From: a virus
Length of the DNA: 23,896 nucleotides
IMG/VR virus record: IMGVR_UViG_3300046009_003603
Span: 1 to 23,896 of that record
Reading direction: 5' to 3' (one strand)
A program made the position numbers and the translations under genes. How positions within the stretch are numbered: position 1 is the stretch's first letter; every line of letters starts with the position of its first letter. Shown piece after piece: positions 16,937-23,532 of this stretch. The notes beneath the pieces are model-generated. The model searched no databases. It saw only the letters and a list, made by a program, of their open reading frames with translations, and was not told the DNA's origin.

Positions 16937-18571
16937 CTAAGCCCTGAGTGCTGTATCAAGTGACGCCAACTGACTACGGCTGAGTTCCGCCGATTGAACA
17001 CAAAGCGAAACAGCGGAATCGTATCCAGCCCCAGCCGTCACATGCGAACTGGCCAAGTCGTTGTCGCTGTTAGATGCGTCTCCCCAAACTCCCGAACCTG
17101 AACCGCTTAGAACCGACTGCTGCCAGAGGTTGCGGAGTTGCGTTATCGTGGTTGCGGTCAGACCTGCTGCAGTCAGTCTTGCCAGCCCAGCAGCTCCGCT
17201 CAGCGTCACGTAATAATTGGCGTCGATGTCAGCGACCAGCGTGCCCAAGTTTGTCGGGTACGCTCCGTTGAATGCGTAGTCGCTGTAGCAATCATCATCG
17301 AATGAAATTAGCACGTTATCGCGAACCGTGTAGTTGTTGCCGCCACCGCTGGCTGTCGAGCCGCCCTGAGTCCCGCCAAGCAGAATGCAGCGGTCAGCGA
17401 CGATAGTATTGCCTTCGATGTTTGGATTTGGCCCAAACGCCAGCACGCTCGCTTGACACAGATTGTTTTCAAACTGTATCCCGTCGCCCCACAGATAAAC
17501 TTGGTGGACGTTGGTCGTGTCGCCGAGCTGGGCTACGCGGAAGTAGTTGCCAGTGACAACCGCCCCGTCGGTGTTGGCAAACAGCGAAAAGACGCCAGCA
17601 CTCAAAACCGGCTGCGTCATGTCGTTGTCTGTGATTGTGATTGAAGTGAAGTTGATTCCCTTGGCGTTATTCACTGCCCGCGTCGACGCTTCCGTGATTT
17701 CCTGCCCGACGCCAATCCAGCCGGACGTTGTATTTCCGGACATGACCAGGCTGGCAGTGGTCGATGTACCCGGCGACGGAGAGTAGATAAACATCGCGTA
17801 CCCACTGCTGTTAGTGTAGGTAATCGTGTTGTTACGAATCTCTATAGGTGAGGTTGAATTGCTGGCGATGATCCGCAGTTGATTAACGACGGTATTGTTA
17901 TCAATCGTAATCTGTGAGTTTTGCAGTTTGACGCTTGCCCCAGACAATACGGTCGTGCCGCCAATTGCGGCCGTGGAGCTGATAACTGCTCCGTCGATGT
18001 CGATATTCGTGATTGAACCGACCGCCAGATTCGCCCACAGATTCCAGCCCGTGATCGTACATGCGGGCGAAATGCGAAACGTGCCAGAAGCGGGTGCGTT
18101 GATTCGGATTCCCTCTTCATTAAACACTCGCGAGTGTGTAAACGTGCAATTCCCGGCCAGCGTGATGTTATAACTGCCGGTAGAAGCGAACAGAAAAACG
18201 ATCCGATTGCAGGTTACATCACAATTTTCGACTCGCAGCGTTGCCTTTGCATTGTCCAGCCCAGTAATAAAACGGTCACAGGCATCGTTGACTACGAACG
18301 GGCTTGAAGTTGCCGAGCGAACGAGAATTGACCCGCCATTGTGCTGCGGCACTAGCCGAATATGGTCAGTCGATTGCAGTGGACCGGATGGCACGACGTT
18401 GACGACCAGATTGGTGTTTGCCGTCCATTTATTAACCAGTGATTGATAGGTAGCGTGATAGATGGTCGCAAACGGTGCCGACTGCGATCCGTTGTTGGAA
18501 TCGCTTCCACTCACCGGGTCCACCCAAAACTGAATCACGCTTTGACCACCAAGCAACATCAATAAACCCAT
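16937..18571 (-). CDS. Right-handed beta-helix tailspike-like protein
   Basis: A 544-residue protein opening WVDPVSGSDSNNGSQSAPFATI, characteristic of parallel beta-helix proteins, followed by many short Asn-rich turns (EIRNNTITYTNSSG, IEGNTIVAD, YTVRDNVLISF) typical of helix coils. Such proteins often act as phage tailspikes that bind or cleave surface polysaccharide; no catalytic residues can be assigned by eye. The ATG at 18571 overlaps the preceding stop (TAATG); the earlier in-frame start at 18586 is TTG and less likely. The N-terminus, MGLLMLLGGQ, closely resembles that of the upstream gene. It probably works with that gene in host surface contact. Confidence 0.85.
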   Translation of the reverse strand: MGLLMLLGGQSVIQFWVDPVSGSDSNNGSQSAPFATIYHATYQSLVNKWTANTNLVVNVVPSGPLQSTDHIRLVPQHNGGSILVRSATSSPFVVNDACDRFITGLDNAKATLRVENCDVTCNRIVFLFASTGSYNITLAGNCTFTHSRVFNEEGIRINAPASGTFRISPACTITGWNLWANLAVGSITNIDIDGAVISSTAAIGGTTVLSGASVKLQNSQITIDNNTVVNQLRIIASNSTSPIEIRNNTITYTNSSGYAMFIYSPSPGTSTTASLVMSGNTTSGWIGVGQEITEASTRAVNNAKGINFTSITITDNDMTQPVLSAGVFSLFANTDGAVVTGNYFRVAQLGDTTNVHQVYLWGDGIQFENNLCQASVLAFGPNPNIEGNTIVADRCILLGGTQGGSTASGGGNNYTVRDNVLISFDDDCYSDYAFNGAYPTNLGTLVADIDANYYVTLSGAAGLARLTAAGLTATTITQLRNLWQQSVLSGSGSGVWGDASNSDNDLASSHVTAGAGYDSAVSLCVQSAELSRSQLASLDTALRA

Positions 18572-19401
18572 TAGGCAATTCCCCAATAGGTCTTCTGGTT
18601 GGCGTCAATGGCGGCCCGGTTGGCAGACTGGTCAGACTTCCACAGAATGAACTCCGAGTAATAGCAGACTGGCGAGAATGTCGTACCTAAGTTGTTCGCT
18701 AAAAATCGTCGGTTTGTCGTTGTCCAATCTGCTACGTTGGCAAACGTGCCAACAACTCCCGCCTGAATCAATGCCCCGGTATGCAATGCCGTGTACAAGT
18801 CGCCTCGTGTCGAGTAAGAAACGGCCGATTCATTTTTGCGAACACTGGAAAGAGTGAAAGACGTTGCTAATGTGGTGCTTGAGCTAGATTGCTGCGAATA
18901 TACCGCCGCCGCTGAATTACTTACGCTTCCGATTAAAGCACATGAAGTCTGGGCGGTTGGAATCCCAAACACCCCAAACCAATCACACGCCGAGTTTTGC
19001 GTCACAATCGGGTAAGCCAGCCCGATGTTGCTGTTGGCGGTCTGATTGCTAATCGTGACCTTGCCGCTGTAGGTTTCGAGTGCCCCGCTGGCAACAATTC
19101 TGGGCTGCAATGCGTCGGTCGCCTGTGTACCGTTGGCACTTCCAACTTGGTCATACCACGTTTTAACAAACCCATCGCCAGCACCGCAAAACGACAACAG
19201 CGATGCCGTGTCAATTAAACCGCCAGAAAAATCAATATCCTGCTCTGTGCTGTCGCTAGAACGTCGCACACGCAAGCAGCTGCCAGCGTAAGCAGTTCGC
19301 AATTTCCGCAGACTATAGGCACCTGCCGAACCAGTGTAGGTGTCCAGCAGTGGCGGAGTTGTCGGCGTTGATGCGCTTCCCAGCAAAAGCAACAGTCCCA
19401 T
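18571..19401 (-). CDS. Arabinofuranosidase B-like / lectin-fold surface protein
   Basis: A 276-residue protein with an N-terminal hydrophobic stretch MGLLLLLGSAS and then a domain remembered from GH54 arabinofuranosidase B catalytic-domain relatives and phage adhesins. Marks are AYSLRKLRTAYAGSCLRVRR, EQDIDFSGGLIDTASLLSF, GFVKTWYDQVGSANGTQA and QPRIV. Such domains have a concanavalin-like sandwich and probably bind or cut a surface glycan. The C-terminus (FILWKSDQSANRAAIDANQ) is a common ending in this group. The ATG at 19401 directly follows the upstream stop. Enzyme activity is not assured; a sugar-binding adhesin is equally possible. Confidence 0.85.
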   Translation of the reverse strand: MGLLLLLGSASTPTTPPLLDTYTGSAGAYSLRKLRTAYAGSCLRVRRSSDSTEQDIDFSGGLIDTASLLSFCGAGDGFVKTWYDQVGSANGTQATDALQPRIVASGALETYSGKVTISNQTANSNIGLAYPIVTQNSACDWFGVFGIPTAQTSCALIGSVSNSAAAVYSQQSSSSTTLATSFTLSSVRKNESAVSYSTRGDLYTALHTGALIQAGVVGTFANVADWTTTNRRFLANNLGTTFSPVCYYSEFILWKSDQSANRAAIDANQKTYWGIA

Positions 19402-19914
19402 CTACTTAGCTCCGTATTTGGCGACCAACTGACCACGGCATCGGCCGCACCACGCTGGCCCAGTTCCGTTGATGTTCATGACGCATCCCTTGTCGGGACA
19501 ATGGCCCCACTTGTCGGCGGCTGGACTGGCCTTGACGCCGAGGAAGTGCCCGACCTCGTGCTGGACGCAAATCCCCGCCACCGTAGCCGTGATTGGCCGA
19601 GACTGCGACAGGTAAATCTTGCCGTCTCCCATGTAGACGCCGATGGCGTTGTAGGTGACCTGCTTCATGAAATAGAACCGGACGTTCGGCTTGCTGGTCG
19701 ACTCGACAAACTTCGCCCCAGACACCTTCGACAGGTCAGCCATTGCCTTGCGGATGATGCCGACCGTCTGTGCGTTGTTCATCCCCTTGAACGCAAAGCC
19801 GGGATAATTGCCGTAGACGAGCTGGAACTTGAACTGGCGCGGCTTGGCCTTGGCCGCTGCCATCAGCTGCGGCTGGTCGCTGGTTTCAATTTCGCATCCG
19901 CAGAAGGCTTGCAT
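19402..19914 (-). CDS. Archaemetzincin-like zinc metalloprotease with inserted loop
   Basis: A 170-residue protein. The zinc site begins H119-E-V-G-H123-F-L-G126, a metzincin signature. The usual third His position, 129, is Ala. An H138-C139 pair comes nine residues later, followed by PDKG, C144, V, M146, which reproduces the archaemetzincin pattern HC-x4-C-x-M. A closing CxxC (C156, C159) follows. Thus it looks like an M54-type site with about nine extra residues between the Gly and the third His. No signal peptide is evident. It could be a virion or lysis protease. The ATG at 19914 overlaps the upstream stop. Confidence 0.8.
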   Translation of the reverse strand: MQAFCGCEIETSDQPQLMAAAKAKPRQFKFQLVYGNYPGFAFKGMNNAQTVGIIRKAMADLSKVSGAKFVESTSKPNVRFYFMKQVTYNAIGVYMGDGKIYLSQSRPITATVAGICVQHEVGHFLGVKASPAADKWGHCPDKGCVMNINGTGPAWCGRCRGQLVAKYGAK

Positions 19915-20264
19915 TAGCCGACTTCTCGGAAATGCAGCGTCAGCGTCCGCTCAGCACCTTCAGCACTGCCAGCGACAAGCTTGATGAACGGGGCGCAAAC
20001 GAACACCCGAGGATCCAGCGGAACAGTTGTGCTGGCCGTAACTGTGATTGAATAAGCCGACGCACCGCCAACTTCTCGGATCGCAGTATACGTGCCTGCC
20101 TCCGTTGTCGCTCGCTGAAACGTCAGCGCCGTGCTGGTCATCGTCGCCGGAAAAGTGACGGCAACAAGCTGCGTCGTGCTGAAACTGCTGACGAGGCCCG
20201 TATCCACCGCCGCCGTCGTTGTGCCGTTGTTGGCAATCGTGATCGTCTTATCGTAAAAGGCCAC
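19914..20264 (-). CDS. Small beta-rich phage structural protein
   Basis: A 116-residue Thr/Ala-rich beta protein. VAVTFPATMTSTALTFQRATTEAGTY and TVPLDPRVFVCAPFIKLVAGS fit a family remembered from phage tail and accessory regions, in which a compact beta-sandwich ends LTLHFRE. The start is GTG at 20264, with AAAGGAG upstream and three bases after the previous stop. It stands between a membrane coiled-coil gene and the metalloprotease. It is probably a virion surface or tail protein. Confidence 0.78.
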   Translation of the reverse strand: MAFYDKTITIANNGTTTAAVDTGLVSSFSTTQLVAVTFPATMTSTALTFQRATTEAGTYTAIREVGGASAYSITVTASTTVPLDPRVFVCAPFIKLVAGSAEGAERTLTLHFREVG

Positions 20265-20267
20265 AGC

Positions 20268-20462
20268 TTACTCCTTTGAATCTAGTCGGTCGTTAATTTG
20301 TGTAATTCGCACCCAAAGGTTTTCCCGGTCTTGGCGGCAAGTGATGACTTCCTTCTTCAGTTCGTCGAACTGCGTCACGAACCAGCGAAACATCCAGGTC
20401 GTCGCTCCGGCCAGCGAACCAACGGCAACGGTCAAGGCTCCAATCAAGCTCAAATCAGTCAC
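20268..20462 (-). CDS. Membrane-anchored coiled-coil protein (holin or spanin-like)
   Basis: A 64-residue protein. Residues about 5-25 (LIGALTVAVGSLAGATTWMF) form one membrane segment, and residues 31-62 form a charged coiled coil (FDELKKEVITCRQDREN). This layout resembles inner-membrane lysis proteins such as i-spanins or some small holins. The start is GTG at 20462, with AAAGGT upstream and 12 bases past the cysteine-peptidase stop. Its place right after a peptidase gene favours a lysis role, but the exact class cannot be decided by sequence alone. Confidence 0.72.
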   Translation of the reverse strand: MTDLSLIGALTVAVGSLAGATTWMFRWFVTQFDELKKEVITCRQDRENLWVRITQINDRLDSKE

Positions 20463-20474
20463 GGCGATGACCTT

Positions 20475-21278
20475 TCAGGAAATGACTTTCGGTGTCGGAA
20501 AACTCATCCCGTCCGGTGCGTAACCGATAAACACCGTCCAGCGGGCCTTCAAAGCCTCCTTGACGCTGTCAATCGTCCATTCGTGGACGCCGTCGCCATT
20601 CCACCGCGTCCCCCACGAATTGATGTTCACGATGTTTCCACTGGCTCGCCGTTGCCAGAACACCGTCGAATGTCCGCCACCGGATCGGGATGAATAATTG
20701 GAAACGACTTCTTGGTCGCAGGTGCTGTTCCAAGTCAGGCCGGTTTGAATCGGCAGGCCGGAATCCAGCCACGCCAGCATGGCGTCGATGTCCTTGAGGG
20801 GCTTGGTGGCCTGCAGCTTGAAATTGAACTTGCCGTTTGCACTTGGCGGCATCGCCGGGTTGTAGCGCTGCGGGTATGGCCAGTCGGACTCAAGGCACAT
20901 CCCATGCTGGGTTGCGACCCACTGGCCGCCGCTGAGCGTGCTGCCCTTGTCGCCGCTGATGCCGTCCTTCTTCTGTGCCAGGTAGTAGCCCGCCGAACGG
21001 CTGAACGTCTCGTGCCGACCAGTGGCAAGGAAGTAGCAGATACTGAACACCTGCGCCAGTGCGTTTCCGGCACAGCTGCCCTGAGCCCCTTGATCGAACA
21101 CCTTCAGCAGGCCCAGCGGGTCGGCCTGCGTGTTGAACTTGGGGAAGGCGTCCCGGTAGTGCTGCAGCACCAGCTCGGCCTCGCTGCCCCGGTCCTCTAG
21201 CTCGTCCAGGCGTTCCCAGTCGAAGGCGTAGCCCATCCGGCCCGGCGTCATGTCTTTAGTCGGTTTGCTTTTGCTCAC
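20475..21278 (-). CDS. Papain-like (C1 family) cysteine peptidase
   Basis: A 267-residue protein with the papain catalytic set in order: Q63 (oxyanion) and C69 in VFDQGAQGSCAGNA, H203 in GGGHSTVFW, and N220 in VNINSWGTRWNGDG. The N-terminal 50 residues (DMTPGRMGYAFDWERLDEL) are charged and could be a propeptide-like or binding segment. There is no signal peptide. The start is GTG at 21278, overlapping the upstream stop (GTGA). It could be an endolysin-like protein released through the neighbouring membrane proteins, or a virion peptidase. No peptidoglycan-binding domain is visible. Confidence 0.88.
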   Translation of the reverse strand: MSKSKPTKDMTPGRMGYAFDWERLDELEDRGSEAELVLQHYRDAFPKFNTQADPLGLLKVFDQGAQGSCAGNALAQVFSICYFLATGRHETFSRSAGYYLAQKKDGISGDKGSTLSGGQWVATQHGMCLESDWPYPQRYNPAMPPSANGKFNFKLQATKPLKDIDAMLAWLDSGLPIQTGLTWNSTCDQEVVSNYSSRSGGGHSTVFWQRRASGNIVNINSWGTRWNGDGVHEWTIDSVKEALKARWTVFIGYAPDGMSFPTPKVIS

Positions 21279-22048
21279 TTGGCCCGTGCCTCCAGTGCCG
21301 TCGCCACTTCCGTCAGTGCTTTGAACCAGTCCTCGCGGCTGAAACTGCCACGCTTGGCCTGCGAGGCCTTCATCGCCTCATCCAGATTGAGCTTCCATTT
21401 GCCCCACGCCTCGCATTTGCTTAAGTCGCTGCACTGACGACCGGCGACCGTAGCGCCAATGTCCGCCAGAATCCTGTCCACGGTTGAGAGTCCACCAGTG
21501 CCGAACAGCTTGCCAGCCCCGTCGCGGTACACCTTGGCAAACTTGGTAGCGTTCGGAATGTCGGCTGGTGCCTGCTGGTATGTCAAAAGGCCGACGCCGT
21601 AATCGTTGGGGACGACTTCCGGCTGTGGCTCCGGGTCCGGCGTCGGCTCGGGAGGTTTCGGAGGGGTTGGCTTGCCGCCGATGTCGAACTTGATTTCAGC
21701 GTCGTCGATGCCTTTGTCGGGGTCGAATACCGTCACCTCGACCACATACGAACCGGCACCGGCAAACAGGTAAACATTATCAGCCAGCTTTTCCGGCTCG
21801 ACTCGATTGCCGCCAGCCCGTGCCTTTACCCGCTGGAACTTGTAATCGCTGCGGACCTCGAGCAGGACGACATCGGTAACGCTTACGTTACTATCATCGC
21901 CGACGAGAATGCGGTTGCCCTGCACCTGCGGATTGGTCACGCCCAGCAGTGCCTTCTTGCGGGTTACGGTCGTCTCGACCTGTGCCTGCACAAGGCCGCA
22001 AAGCAGCAGGCAGGCCGTAACGAAAAAAACAGTTGTTTTGTTACGCAT
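21275..22048 (-). CDS. Secreted two-domain protein with Pro-rich hinge
   Basis: A 257-residue protein. Residues 1-22 form a signal peptide (TTVFFVTACLLLCGLVQAQ, probable cleavage after AQ or nearby; a lipoprotein reading at C13 is unlikely because the hydrophobic part would be too short). Residues about 40-125 are a beta domain (SYVVEVTVFDPDKGIDD) of PKD/Ig type, followed by a Pro/Glu hinge (PPKPPEPTPDPEPQP) and a helical C-terminal domain (RQCSDLSKCEAWGKW). The ATG at 22048 overlaps the previous stop. It precedes the cysteine peptidase and overlaps its start, so the two are probably made together. It could bind the envelope; no enzyme motif is seen. Confidence 0.78.
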   Translation of the reverse strand: MRNKTTVFFVTACLLLCGLVQAQVETTVTRKKALLGVTNPQVQGNRILVGDDSNVSVTDVVLLEVRSDYKFQRVKARAGGNRVEPEKLADNVYLFAGAGSYVVEVTVFDPDKGIDDAEIKFDIGGKPTPPKPPEPTPDPEPQPEVVPNDYGVGLLTYQQAPADIPNATKFAKVYRDGAGKLFGTGGLSTVDRILADIGATVAGRQCSDLSKCEAWGKWKLNLDEAMKASQAKRGSFSREDWFKALTEVATALEARAK

Positions 22049-22284
22049 TACACCACCGAAAAGGCTTTGAGAATCAGCATCACAATTTCCAGCACCTTGG
22101 CCCAGTCGACCTTCGACCAGTCGATGTTGGCCTGATGGGTTGCCAGTTTGTTGGCGACTTCCTCTTCAATGCAGGCCCCAAAATCGGGGTCACGTCGGCA
22201 TCGCCGCGCCAACCACCGCAGGCCGATTCGCCGGTGCAGCGGCTCGTTCTTTGCCTTGTCTTCCAGCAGTTCAACGAACGTCAT
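22048..22284 (-). CDS. Small basic protein with C-terminal hydrophobic helix
   Basis: A 78-residue protein with a basic middle part (HRRIGLRWLARRCRRDPDF) and a C-terminal stretch VLEIVMLILKAFSVV that could lie in or on the membrane. The ATG at 22284 lies inside the preceding 33-residue frame, and GGAGGG stands about six bases before it. The stop overlaps the next ATG. Function is unknown. Placement in a chain of small membrane proteins suggests a part in lysis, for example a regulator of holin action. Confidence 0.72.
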   Translation of the reverse strand: MTFVELLEDKAKNEPLHRRIGLRWLARRCRRDPDFGACIEEEVANKLATHQANIDWSKVDWAKVLEIVMLILKAFSVV

Positions 22285-22372
22285 CTTGCCCTCCGTGAAT
22301 TTCAGCCAGCACGCTCAGCATGCCCGTTAGAATCAGCGCCAACAGCATCAGCCCGACCCACTCGCTGGTCAT
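22271..22372 (-). CDS. 33-residue single-pass membrane peptide
   Basis: A tiny frame beginning MTSEWVGLMLLALILTGMLS. Residues 5-23 form one hydrophobic helix, with a short acidic-polar tail. Its ATG overlaps the stop of the two-pass holin-like gene (ATGA at 22372-22369), and GGAG sits nine bases before it. Its last 14 bases overlap the next gene. The coupled overlaps on both sides and the good ribosome binding site argue for a real gene despite the size. It may be a holin partner, antiholin or pinholin-like peptide. Confidence 0.65.
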   Translation of the reverse strand: MTSEWVGLMLLALILTGMLSVLAEIHGGQDDVR

Positions 22373-22620
22373 CGCTTTGGCTCCGAATAGTGCGGCGAGA
22401 CCTTGACGAGCAGCAGCGACTCGAGCATCGGCCACCGCTTGGCCAGCAGGCCGATTCCGGCATTGGCCAGCCCGGTCAGGATGATGATCATCGCCGCCTC
22501 AACGGCCAGCGACTGGTCAGGCGTAAACGCCAAGCCCAGATACTGCAGCAGGAACGCAGCGAGCCACGCCCAGACGGACGAGGCAGCAACGCGAACAAAT
22601 CGTGTCAAAATTTCAGACAT
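22369..22620 (-). CDS. Holin-like two-pass membrane protein
   Basis: An 83-residue protein with two predicted membrane segments, about residues 10-29 (SSVWAWLAAFLLQYLGLAF) and about 36-57 (AVEAAMIIILTGLANAGIGL), and a short basic C-terminus. This size and layout are typical of class II-type phage holins. The ATG at 22620 overlaps the upstream stop (TGATG) and has AGAGGTGG upstream; the longer frame to 22722 runs into the previous gene. It would permit release or activation of lytic enzymes, here perhaps the nearby peptidase. Confidence 0.75.
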   Translation of the reverse strand: MSEILTRFVRVAASSVWAWLAAFLLQYLGLAFTPDQSLAVEAAMIIILTGLANAGIGLLAKRWPMLESLLLVKVSPHYSEPKR

Positions 22621-22826
22621 CAAAACCACCTCTTGCGCTGTGCCGGTTCCCAGTATTTTTCTGCATAGTAGCCCCGCATCCATGCAATTCGCCGAATGCT
22701 GCCGCCCTTGCTGCTTGGCCACGGGCAGCAGCTGCTTTCCTTGCCAGTCAGGAACGCCTTGCGGCCTTCCCTCTCGTCGTCCTCATAAGTCAACAGCGGG
22801 CTGCCTTCCGTAGCTGTGTTGGCCAT
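22620..22826 (-). CDS. Ribosome modulation factor (Rmf)-like small protein
   Basis: A 68-residue protein. Residues about 20-60 follow the Rmf pattern: EGRKAFLTGKESSCCPW, then R-R-x-x-W-M-R-G-YYAE, compared with G-x2-A-x3-G...CPY...W-x2-GW in bacterial Rmf. Bacterial Rmf joins ribosomes into inactive dimers. Whether the phage protein binds ribosomes is unknown. The ATG at 22826 has GGGAGG upstream. It stands between a secreted protease and the holin-like gene and overlaps the latter's start. Confidence 0.72.
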   Translation of the reverse strand: MANTATEGSPLLTYEDDEREGRKAFLTGKESSCCPWPSSKGGSIRRIAWMRGYYAEKYWEPAQRKRWF

Positions 22827-22854
22827 CCGTTAGCCTCCCGCTTGTTTGTTTCGC

Positions 22855-23532
22855 TTATCGTTTGCCCAGCAGTCTACGAACTGCTGAACAAGCTCCCGCG
22901 CGAACCGGTGCCGTGATGCTGGTCGCGTGTCCGTACACGTTTTTCAACTTCTTCTTGCACCAGACCGAACCGCCTGACACCACGCCGCAGACCTTGCCAG
23001 CTGCGTTCACAACTGGCCCGCCGCTGTCACCGGGTATCGCCCAGGAGAAAAGCACTTGTGATTTTTCACCAACGCCAGCCACCTTGGCCTTAAAGCACCG
23101 CAGCGGCCCGCCACCACCAAATCCGCAGACGTGGACCTCGTCGCCTTCGTTGACTTCATCGGCGACTTCCAGCACACTGCAGCCGCCCGGCGTCTTGCAG
23201 TTAAGAACCGCAACGTCCGCCTCTTGGTCGATGCCTCGCAGCGTTGCGTTATTGGCGGCTGTGCCGTCGTGAAAGCTGACCGTAAACGACTGATTGCCGT
23301 CGGCGATGTGTGCTGCAGTCAGAATGGCTGGGCCTTCATTTGCCGCCACGATACAGCCGGTGCCAGTGCCGCCGTTGCTGTTGCCGCGAACGACGACCAC
23401 CGCACTCTCGACGCAGGGGTCGCACTTCACGAACTCCCACAGACCTGAATCCTTGCCGACTTGCGCCACAGCGTGCGGCACAAACAGAGAAAAGACAACC
23501 AGAACTGATAGAGACAGTTTGGCGAGATTCAC
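22855..23532 (-). CDS. Secreted trypsin-like serine protease
   Basis: A 225-residue protein with an N-terminal signal peptide (residues 1-24, LSLSVLVVFSLFVPHAVAQ). The chymotrypsin-fold triad is H75 in LTAAHIAD, D106 in EADVAVL and S170 in GDSGGPV. There are ten cysteines after the signal, suggesting disulfides and an extracytoplasmic site. The start is GTG at 23532, with AGGTGA upstream. No PDZ domain follows, so it is not a full DegP-type protease. A secreted S1 protease in a phage late block is unusual. It could process envelope proteins at lysis, modify the host surface, or be an accessory gene. Confidence 0.88.
   Translation of the reverse strand: MNLAKLSLSVLVVFSLFVPHAVAQVGKDSGLWEFVKCDPCVESAVVVVRGNSNGGTGTGCIVAANEGPAILTAAHIADGNQSFTVSFHDGTAANNATLRGIDQEADVAVLNCKTPGGCSVLEVADEVNEGDEVHVCGFGGGGPLRCFKAKVAGVGEKSQVLFSWAIPGDSGGPVVNAAGKVCGVVSGGSVWCKKKLKNVYGHATSITAPVRAGACSAVRRLLGKR

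Follow-up and report, generated by a model that had tools for sequence, protein, structure and literature searches.

We found that a papain-type cysteine peptidase (w26) and an exported partner protein (w27) are encoded as a pair in phages that are otherwise unrelated, and we tentatively propose that the two proteins act as a single unit, which stands in for the endolysin and cleaves an envelope protein of the host. Were the pair the lysis enzyme, these phages would be an exception to lysis by peptidoglycan cleavage, the rule among double-stranded DNA phages, and the host envelope would have to be held together by protein. The pair would then also serve as a marker for phages of one host group and would be a cell-opening enzyme of a new class. 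Should the lysis role prove wrong, the fact that unrelated phages have this two-gene unit alone in common would still indicate a strong requirement specific to the host.

A gene pair shared by unrelated phages

The window, that is, the whole stretch of DNA that was analysed, is an incomplete viral fragment of 23,896 bases (record G000) whose likely genes all lie on the minus strand, the strand of every window gene located below. The gene block under study occupies 16.9–23.5 kb and is transcribed in the order w31, w30, w29, a 33-amino-acid transmembrane open reading frame (ORF), w28, w27, w26, w25, w24, w23, w22 and w21, followed by the terminase gene. To the left of the block lie genes for the terminase, a portal of the lambda-like type, a ClpP-type head protease and further structural proteins. 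A first-pass annotation of the window had placed three types of protease within 4.1 kb, amid small membrane proteins, and this arrangement was confirmed, the three being w31, w26 and w23. Comparison with relatives gave low dN/dS values (approximately 0.05–0.3) for w31, w26, w23 and w27, and these are therefore real genes under purifying selection.

We searched IMG/VR with the terminase, w26 and w27, took 27 related records whole or nearly so, and called their genes. The clusters of w26 and w27 were the only ones present in all peptidase-bearing records (23/23); the record set was gathered through w26 or w27, so that the query gene is present by construction and the presence of its partner is not. 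All 19 loci retrieved with w27 lay in records that carry w26, and every record with w26 carries w27. In every one of the 23 records, the two genes share a strand and w27 is upstream; they overlap by 4 nt in 19 records and by 1 nt in 2, are separated by a 7-nt gap in G024 and have one ORF between them in G026. In nearly all records, then, w27 and w26 are arranged as translationally coupled genes. Pairwise protein distances of w26 tracked those of w27 (rho = 0.92 over 19 records).

Apart from recognizable sister groups (G019/G021/G028 and G007/G011/G014), distant genomes had only 0–5 other clusters in common. Their portal and terminase types differ, with a Mu-like portal in G026 and Terminase_6N in G024, and even in the group to which the window belongs, the block is combined with a different structural module in G014 and its sisters. 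Judged by direct terminal repeats, three genomes are complete: G019 (59,638 bases; repeats of 127 bp), G024 (46,320 bases; 123 bp) and G026 (62,651 bases; 127 bp). G007 (42,119 bases) is probably near complete, because the two genes at its ends, the last of them encoding a fibre protein, are neighbours in G014. A role for w26 as the prohead protease was ruled out, as the window has its ClpP-type enzyme and w26 is common to phages with different head genes. In G011, the gene for the terminase large subunit is split, a short gap separating its two ORFs (388 and 277 amino acids; L044:7308-9430). The complete genome of G024 contains both a Phage_Mu_F match and a match to bacterial toxin 46 (Ntox46).

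Two scans of genome contigs, covering 85,000 bacterial and archaeal genomes, revealed no relatives. Among deposited phages, the only match was a partial one to w26 (26.7%) in an uncultured 595-kb phage, and w27 had none; among plasmids, only distant cellular C1 peptidases matched. No tRNAs were found in the records scanned. We found no description of the w27–w26 pair in the open-access literature.

w26 is predicted to be a C1A peptidase

On the basis of a marginal Pfam match, its catalytic residues and its modelled fold, w26 (20475–21278, 267 amino acids) is a xylellain-type cysteine peptidase of family C1A, and is predicted to be proteolytic. The window copy matched Peptidase_C1 just above the cut-off (E = 4e-4, 20.9 bits against 20.7). 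Gln63 (the oxyanion residue), Cys69, His203 and Asn220 do not vary in either of two alignments (13 and 16 sequences), and the catalytic motifs were also listed over all records. The AF2 model (pTM 0.84) has a papain fold (Foldseek E = 3.5e-11) and aligns with xylellain (3ois) over 225 residues with a Z score of 22.6 and an r.m.s.d. of 2.8; the next structure matches are cathepsin- and papain-like enzymes. Besides the fold over this length, w26 has in common with xylellain the Cys-His-Asn residues and the short form. It differs in sequence (approximately 22% identity), in being phage-borne, in having no signal peptide and in being always linked to w27. Acquisition of xylellain-type C1A peptidases by tailed phages has been reported, with no function given in the accessible text of that source (PMC10380794).

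The position and universality of w26 match those of an endolysin, and peptidoglycan is present in most bacteria. These points would also suit a C1A-derived endolysin that fills the same lysis role by attacking peptidoglycan at its peptide stems or cross-bridges, particularly as peptidoglycan endopeptidases are known from other lineages with the papain fold (PMC10318531). We consider such a specificity improbable, because the nearest folds are xylellain and the cathepsins, which are protein-cutting C1A enzymes, rather than NlpC/P60 or CHAP, and because w26 has no wall-binding domain.

The w26 gene of G011 is interrupted by an intein with a LAGLIDADG domain (L044:15168-17126). The catalytic cysteine is the first (+1) extein residue, directly preceded by the intein, so that the peptidase would be active only after splicing. 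Inteins prefer such sites in functionally important proteins. In G024, a gene for a secreted thioredoxin-like protein directly follows w26 (L130:3570-3956), and the genome also has a match to an Erv1/Alr-type sulfhydryl oxidase. It is a matter of speculation that the thioredoxin-like protein could keep the cysteine protease reduced outside the cytosol.

The exported partner w27

w27 (21275–22048, 257 amino acids), the constant partner of w26, was absent from the first-pass account. An alignment of 19 sequences revealed a signal peptide, an Ig/FN3-like β-sandwich, a proline-rich linker and a helical C-terminal domain; here and elsewhere in this study, signal peptides and transmembrane segments were called by hydropathy. 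In the AF2 model (mean pLDDT 82.8), the sandwich was likened to FN3, CopC and Ig domains with scores near chance. The helical domain, which has no Pfam match, contains invariant Trp, Gln, Arg and Glu residues and, in most sequences, a pair of cysteines.

That w27 is exported, that its C-terminal domain is matchless and that the pair is inseparable would also be expected if w27 were itself the wall-active enzyme, its helical domain being an unrecognized hydrolase exported by Sec, and w26 served to activate or process it. This arrangement seems to us very improbable. The only acid invariant over the 19 sequences, Glu247, lies near the C terminus, unlike the sites of lysozyme- or SLT-type enzymes. 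Foldseek and VIA searches against PDB or BFVD gave no hydrolase, with the sandwich dominating the matches and the helical domain barely probed.

Small membrane proteins adjoin the pair

Small proteins with hydrophobic segments surround the pair in the window. w29 (22369–22620, 83 amino acids) has two hydrophobic segments and a holin-like topology; by hydropathy only, it has the two-transmembrane small-protein form of a class II holin. It had no Pfam match and no homology to a known holin family, and its PHROG matches were only to families with no assigned function (phrog_10742, E = 6e-5). The single-transmembrane ORF of 33 amino acids (22271–22372) was also found in L086, and a segment similar to it is fused to w28 in G011. 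w28 (22048–22284, 78 amino acids) has a C-terminal hydrophobic helix, whereas w25 (20268–20462, 64 amino acids) has an N-terminal hydrophobic segment and a charged, probably coiled-coil C terminus. w29 and w25 each occur in 13 records. The neighbouring w24 (19914–20264, 116 amino acids) is β-rich, occurs in 12 records and has neither a Pfam nor a PHROG match.

In distant phages, small proteins with a C-terminal hydrophobic helix recur near the pair, with no clear similarity in sequence. Look-alikes of w28 were seen there in G019, G020, G024, G025 and G027, and w25-like proteins in G017, G024, G026 and G027. Genes of up to 150 amino acids with a hydrophobic segment made up 22 of the 57 within four genes of the pair and 12 of the 221 elsewhere (P = 1.5e-9), and the enrichment held with one record per lineage (15/39 versus 8/151, P = 6e-7). 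The block thus resembles holin–endolysin cassettes in that a two-transmembrane small protein, a signal-less enzyme and a small transmembrane/coiled-coil protein are found in one block. It departs from them in that a C1A peptidase replaces the peptidoglycan hydrolase, nothing in such cassettes corresponds to the exported w27 and the holin-like proteins lack homology to known holins. We also observed that the genes for membrane proteins are adjoined by w30 (22620–22826), which encodes a small ribosome-modulation-factor-like protein (Pfam RMF, E = 0.0011 in the window and 1.2e-5 in the G007 copy; phrog_13106, E = 4e-6).

Profile searches reveal no peptidoglycan hydrolase

The first-pass annotation had seen no peptidoglycan hydrolase in the block, and our scan of the window ORFs agreed, finding none. 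Because the window is a 23.9-kb fragment, the absence of an endolysin there means little and complete relatives are needed. A Pfam scan of the whole gene set of complete G024 contained no peptidoglycan hydrolase among all 19 families matched, and none was present among the best 25 of 29 families in G007, the best 25 of 32 in G019 or the best 25 of 47 in G026. A directed search of 20 records found no Amidase_2 or SLT domain, and lysozyme, M23, NlpC/P60, M15_4, GH108 and CHAP gave no match over the cut-off in 13 records. Neither w26 nor w27 matched a peptidoglycan hydrolase family, and neither has a recognized endolysin catalytic domain. The proposal in the first-pass annotation that the phage opens the cell mainly by proteolysis had been staked on there being no endolysin elsewhere in the genome; by profile search, there was none in G019, G024, G026 or the near-complete G007. 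In phages this divergent, absence by profile search is a weak argument.

Two candidates in G019 were rejected. A CHAP match (17732-17878, E = 2e-4) was below threshold, covered half of the profile and had no upstream cysteine; the aligned histidine is Cys or Pro in homologues, and the gene lies between those for the terminase and the portal. A GH108 match fell in a frame that contains stops.

An exported partner of a cytosolic protease also fits roles other than lysis. The pair could be a module for host takeover, anti-defence or superinfection exclusion, for example one that cuts a host or surface protein, with a divergent endolysin encoded elsewhere and invisible to profiles. Many genes in these genomes are without an assigned function, the exported Ig-like w27 would suit surface modification, and few roles are known for the short C1A peptidases of bacteria (PMC10380794). 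We nevertheless regard a takeover module as somewhat unlikely, given that genes for host takeover are usually more variable among unrelated phages than w27 and w26 are, that the pair adjoins small membrane proteins and that several complete genomes yielded no endolysin.

A model for lysis by envelope proteolysis

Of the lysis genes, it is those for endolysins that would be expected to track the host and not the type of capsid. w26 fits such a role in that it is signal-less, universal across unrelated capsids and located amid small membrane proteins in genomes in which no other wall enzyme was seen, and from these features we infer its part in lysis. Its target may be protein, the substrate of C1A enzymes. 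In the model that we propose for late infection, w29 and/or w28 would breach the inner membrane and w26 would then escape into the envelope. There, w27, exported earlier, would position or activate w26, which would cut a structural envelope protein of the host and cause the cell to burst. The exported serine protease w31 and the zinc protease w23 would be accessory and lineage-specific. A more far-reaching version, which we think rather unlikely, is that a whole group of tailed phages, with an uncultured host lineage in common but none of their structural genes, has given up peptidoglycan hydrolases, and that the papain-type protease and its obligatory exported partner lyse the host by cleaving a load-bearing envelope protein.

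Against lysis by w26, all endolysins known to us cut peptidoglycan. Papain-fold peptidoglycan hydrolases belong to the NlpC/P60–CHAP group, not to C1, which also counts against w26 as an endolysin (PMC10318531). In the open-access literature, we found no paper on C1-type lysis enzymes, on phage lysis in which a C1 enzyme acts as a protease or on lysis by planctomycete phages. A planctomycete may be the host; the premise of the first-pass annotation that such a host has a protein-rich envelope is doubtful, since the presence of peptidoglycan in planctomycetes is now established.

Two known systems offer partial parallels. PlyC, a two-gene endolysin, likewise pairs a catalytic subunit of papain fold with a partner of its own; the catalytic domain of PlyC is of the CHAP type and the partner is wall-binding, whereas w27 is separately exported and unrelated. 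Cwp84 of the Clostridioides difficile S-layer, which is among the top fold matches of w26, is a C1 peptidase that acts on a cell-surface protein layer. Unlike w26, it is a host-cell protein with a lectin-like domain, and it is not a phage lysis protein.

w31 and w23 are lineage-specific

The first-pass annotation had treated the three proteases as one system, which the comparison did not bear out: w31 and w23 are not conserved with w26, and only w26 is constant. w31 (22855–23532) encodes a secreted trypsin-like serine protease with a signal-like N terminus, the S1 trypsin-like triad (motifs AAH, ADVAV and GDSGG) and a Trypsin_2 match well over the cut-off (E = 7e-16, 59.6 bits against 27.6). 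It was found only in the window's group, in 12 gene-called records and as a partial copy in G015.

Fibre or adhesin genes had been described directly after the block, and w22 and w21 are indeed fibre-like, with weak domain matches. w22 (18571–19401) resembles a fibre or adhesin protein and has a partial match to ArabFuran-catal (E = 1.1e-7), and w21 (16937–18586) encodes a probable β-helix fibre protein (Beta_helix, E = 0.014, under the cut-off).

w23 (19402–19914) is a metzincin-like zinc protease with complete zinc and Met-turn elements (HEVGHFLG-x11-HC-x4-CxM-x9-CxxC). Its Pfam matches were all below the curated cut-offs, including Astacin (21.1 of 22.5 bits) and M54 (E = 0.056, 13.9 against 24.4 bits), and its profile had no match among PDB sequences. 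The archaemetzincin M54 signature is HExxHxxGxxHCx4CxMx17CxxC; w23 has these elements in order, but with x11 before HC and x9 before CxxC. Of the earlier label 'archaemetzincin-like', metzincin-like is therefore safe and archaemetzincin, sub-threshold in Pfam, is not. The absence of protease genes from close relatives, which had been named as evidence against opening of the cell by proteolysis, holds for w23, present in 8 of the 13 records of the window's group and absent from G004, G010, G011, G013 and G022; w26 is constant. Between G000 and G014, w23 is approximately 92% identical and w26 approximately 66%, which suggests that w23 has recently been swapped between phages as cargo of the variable fibre region. 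As it sits in this exchangeable region, w23 more probably serves host contact.
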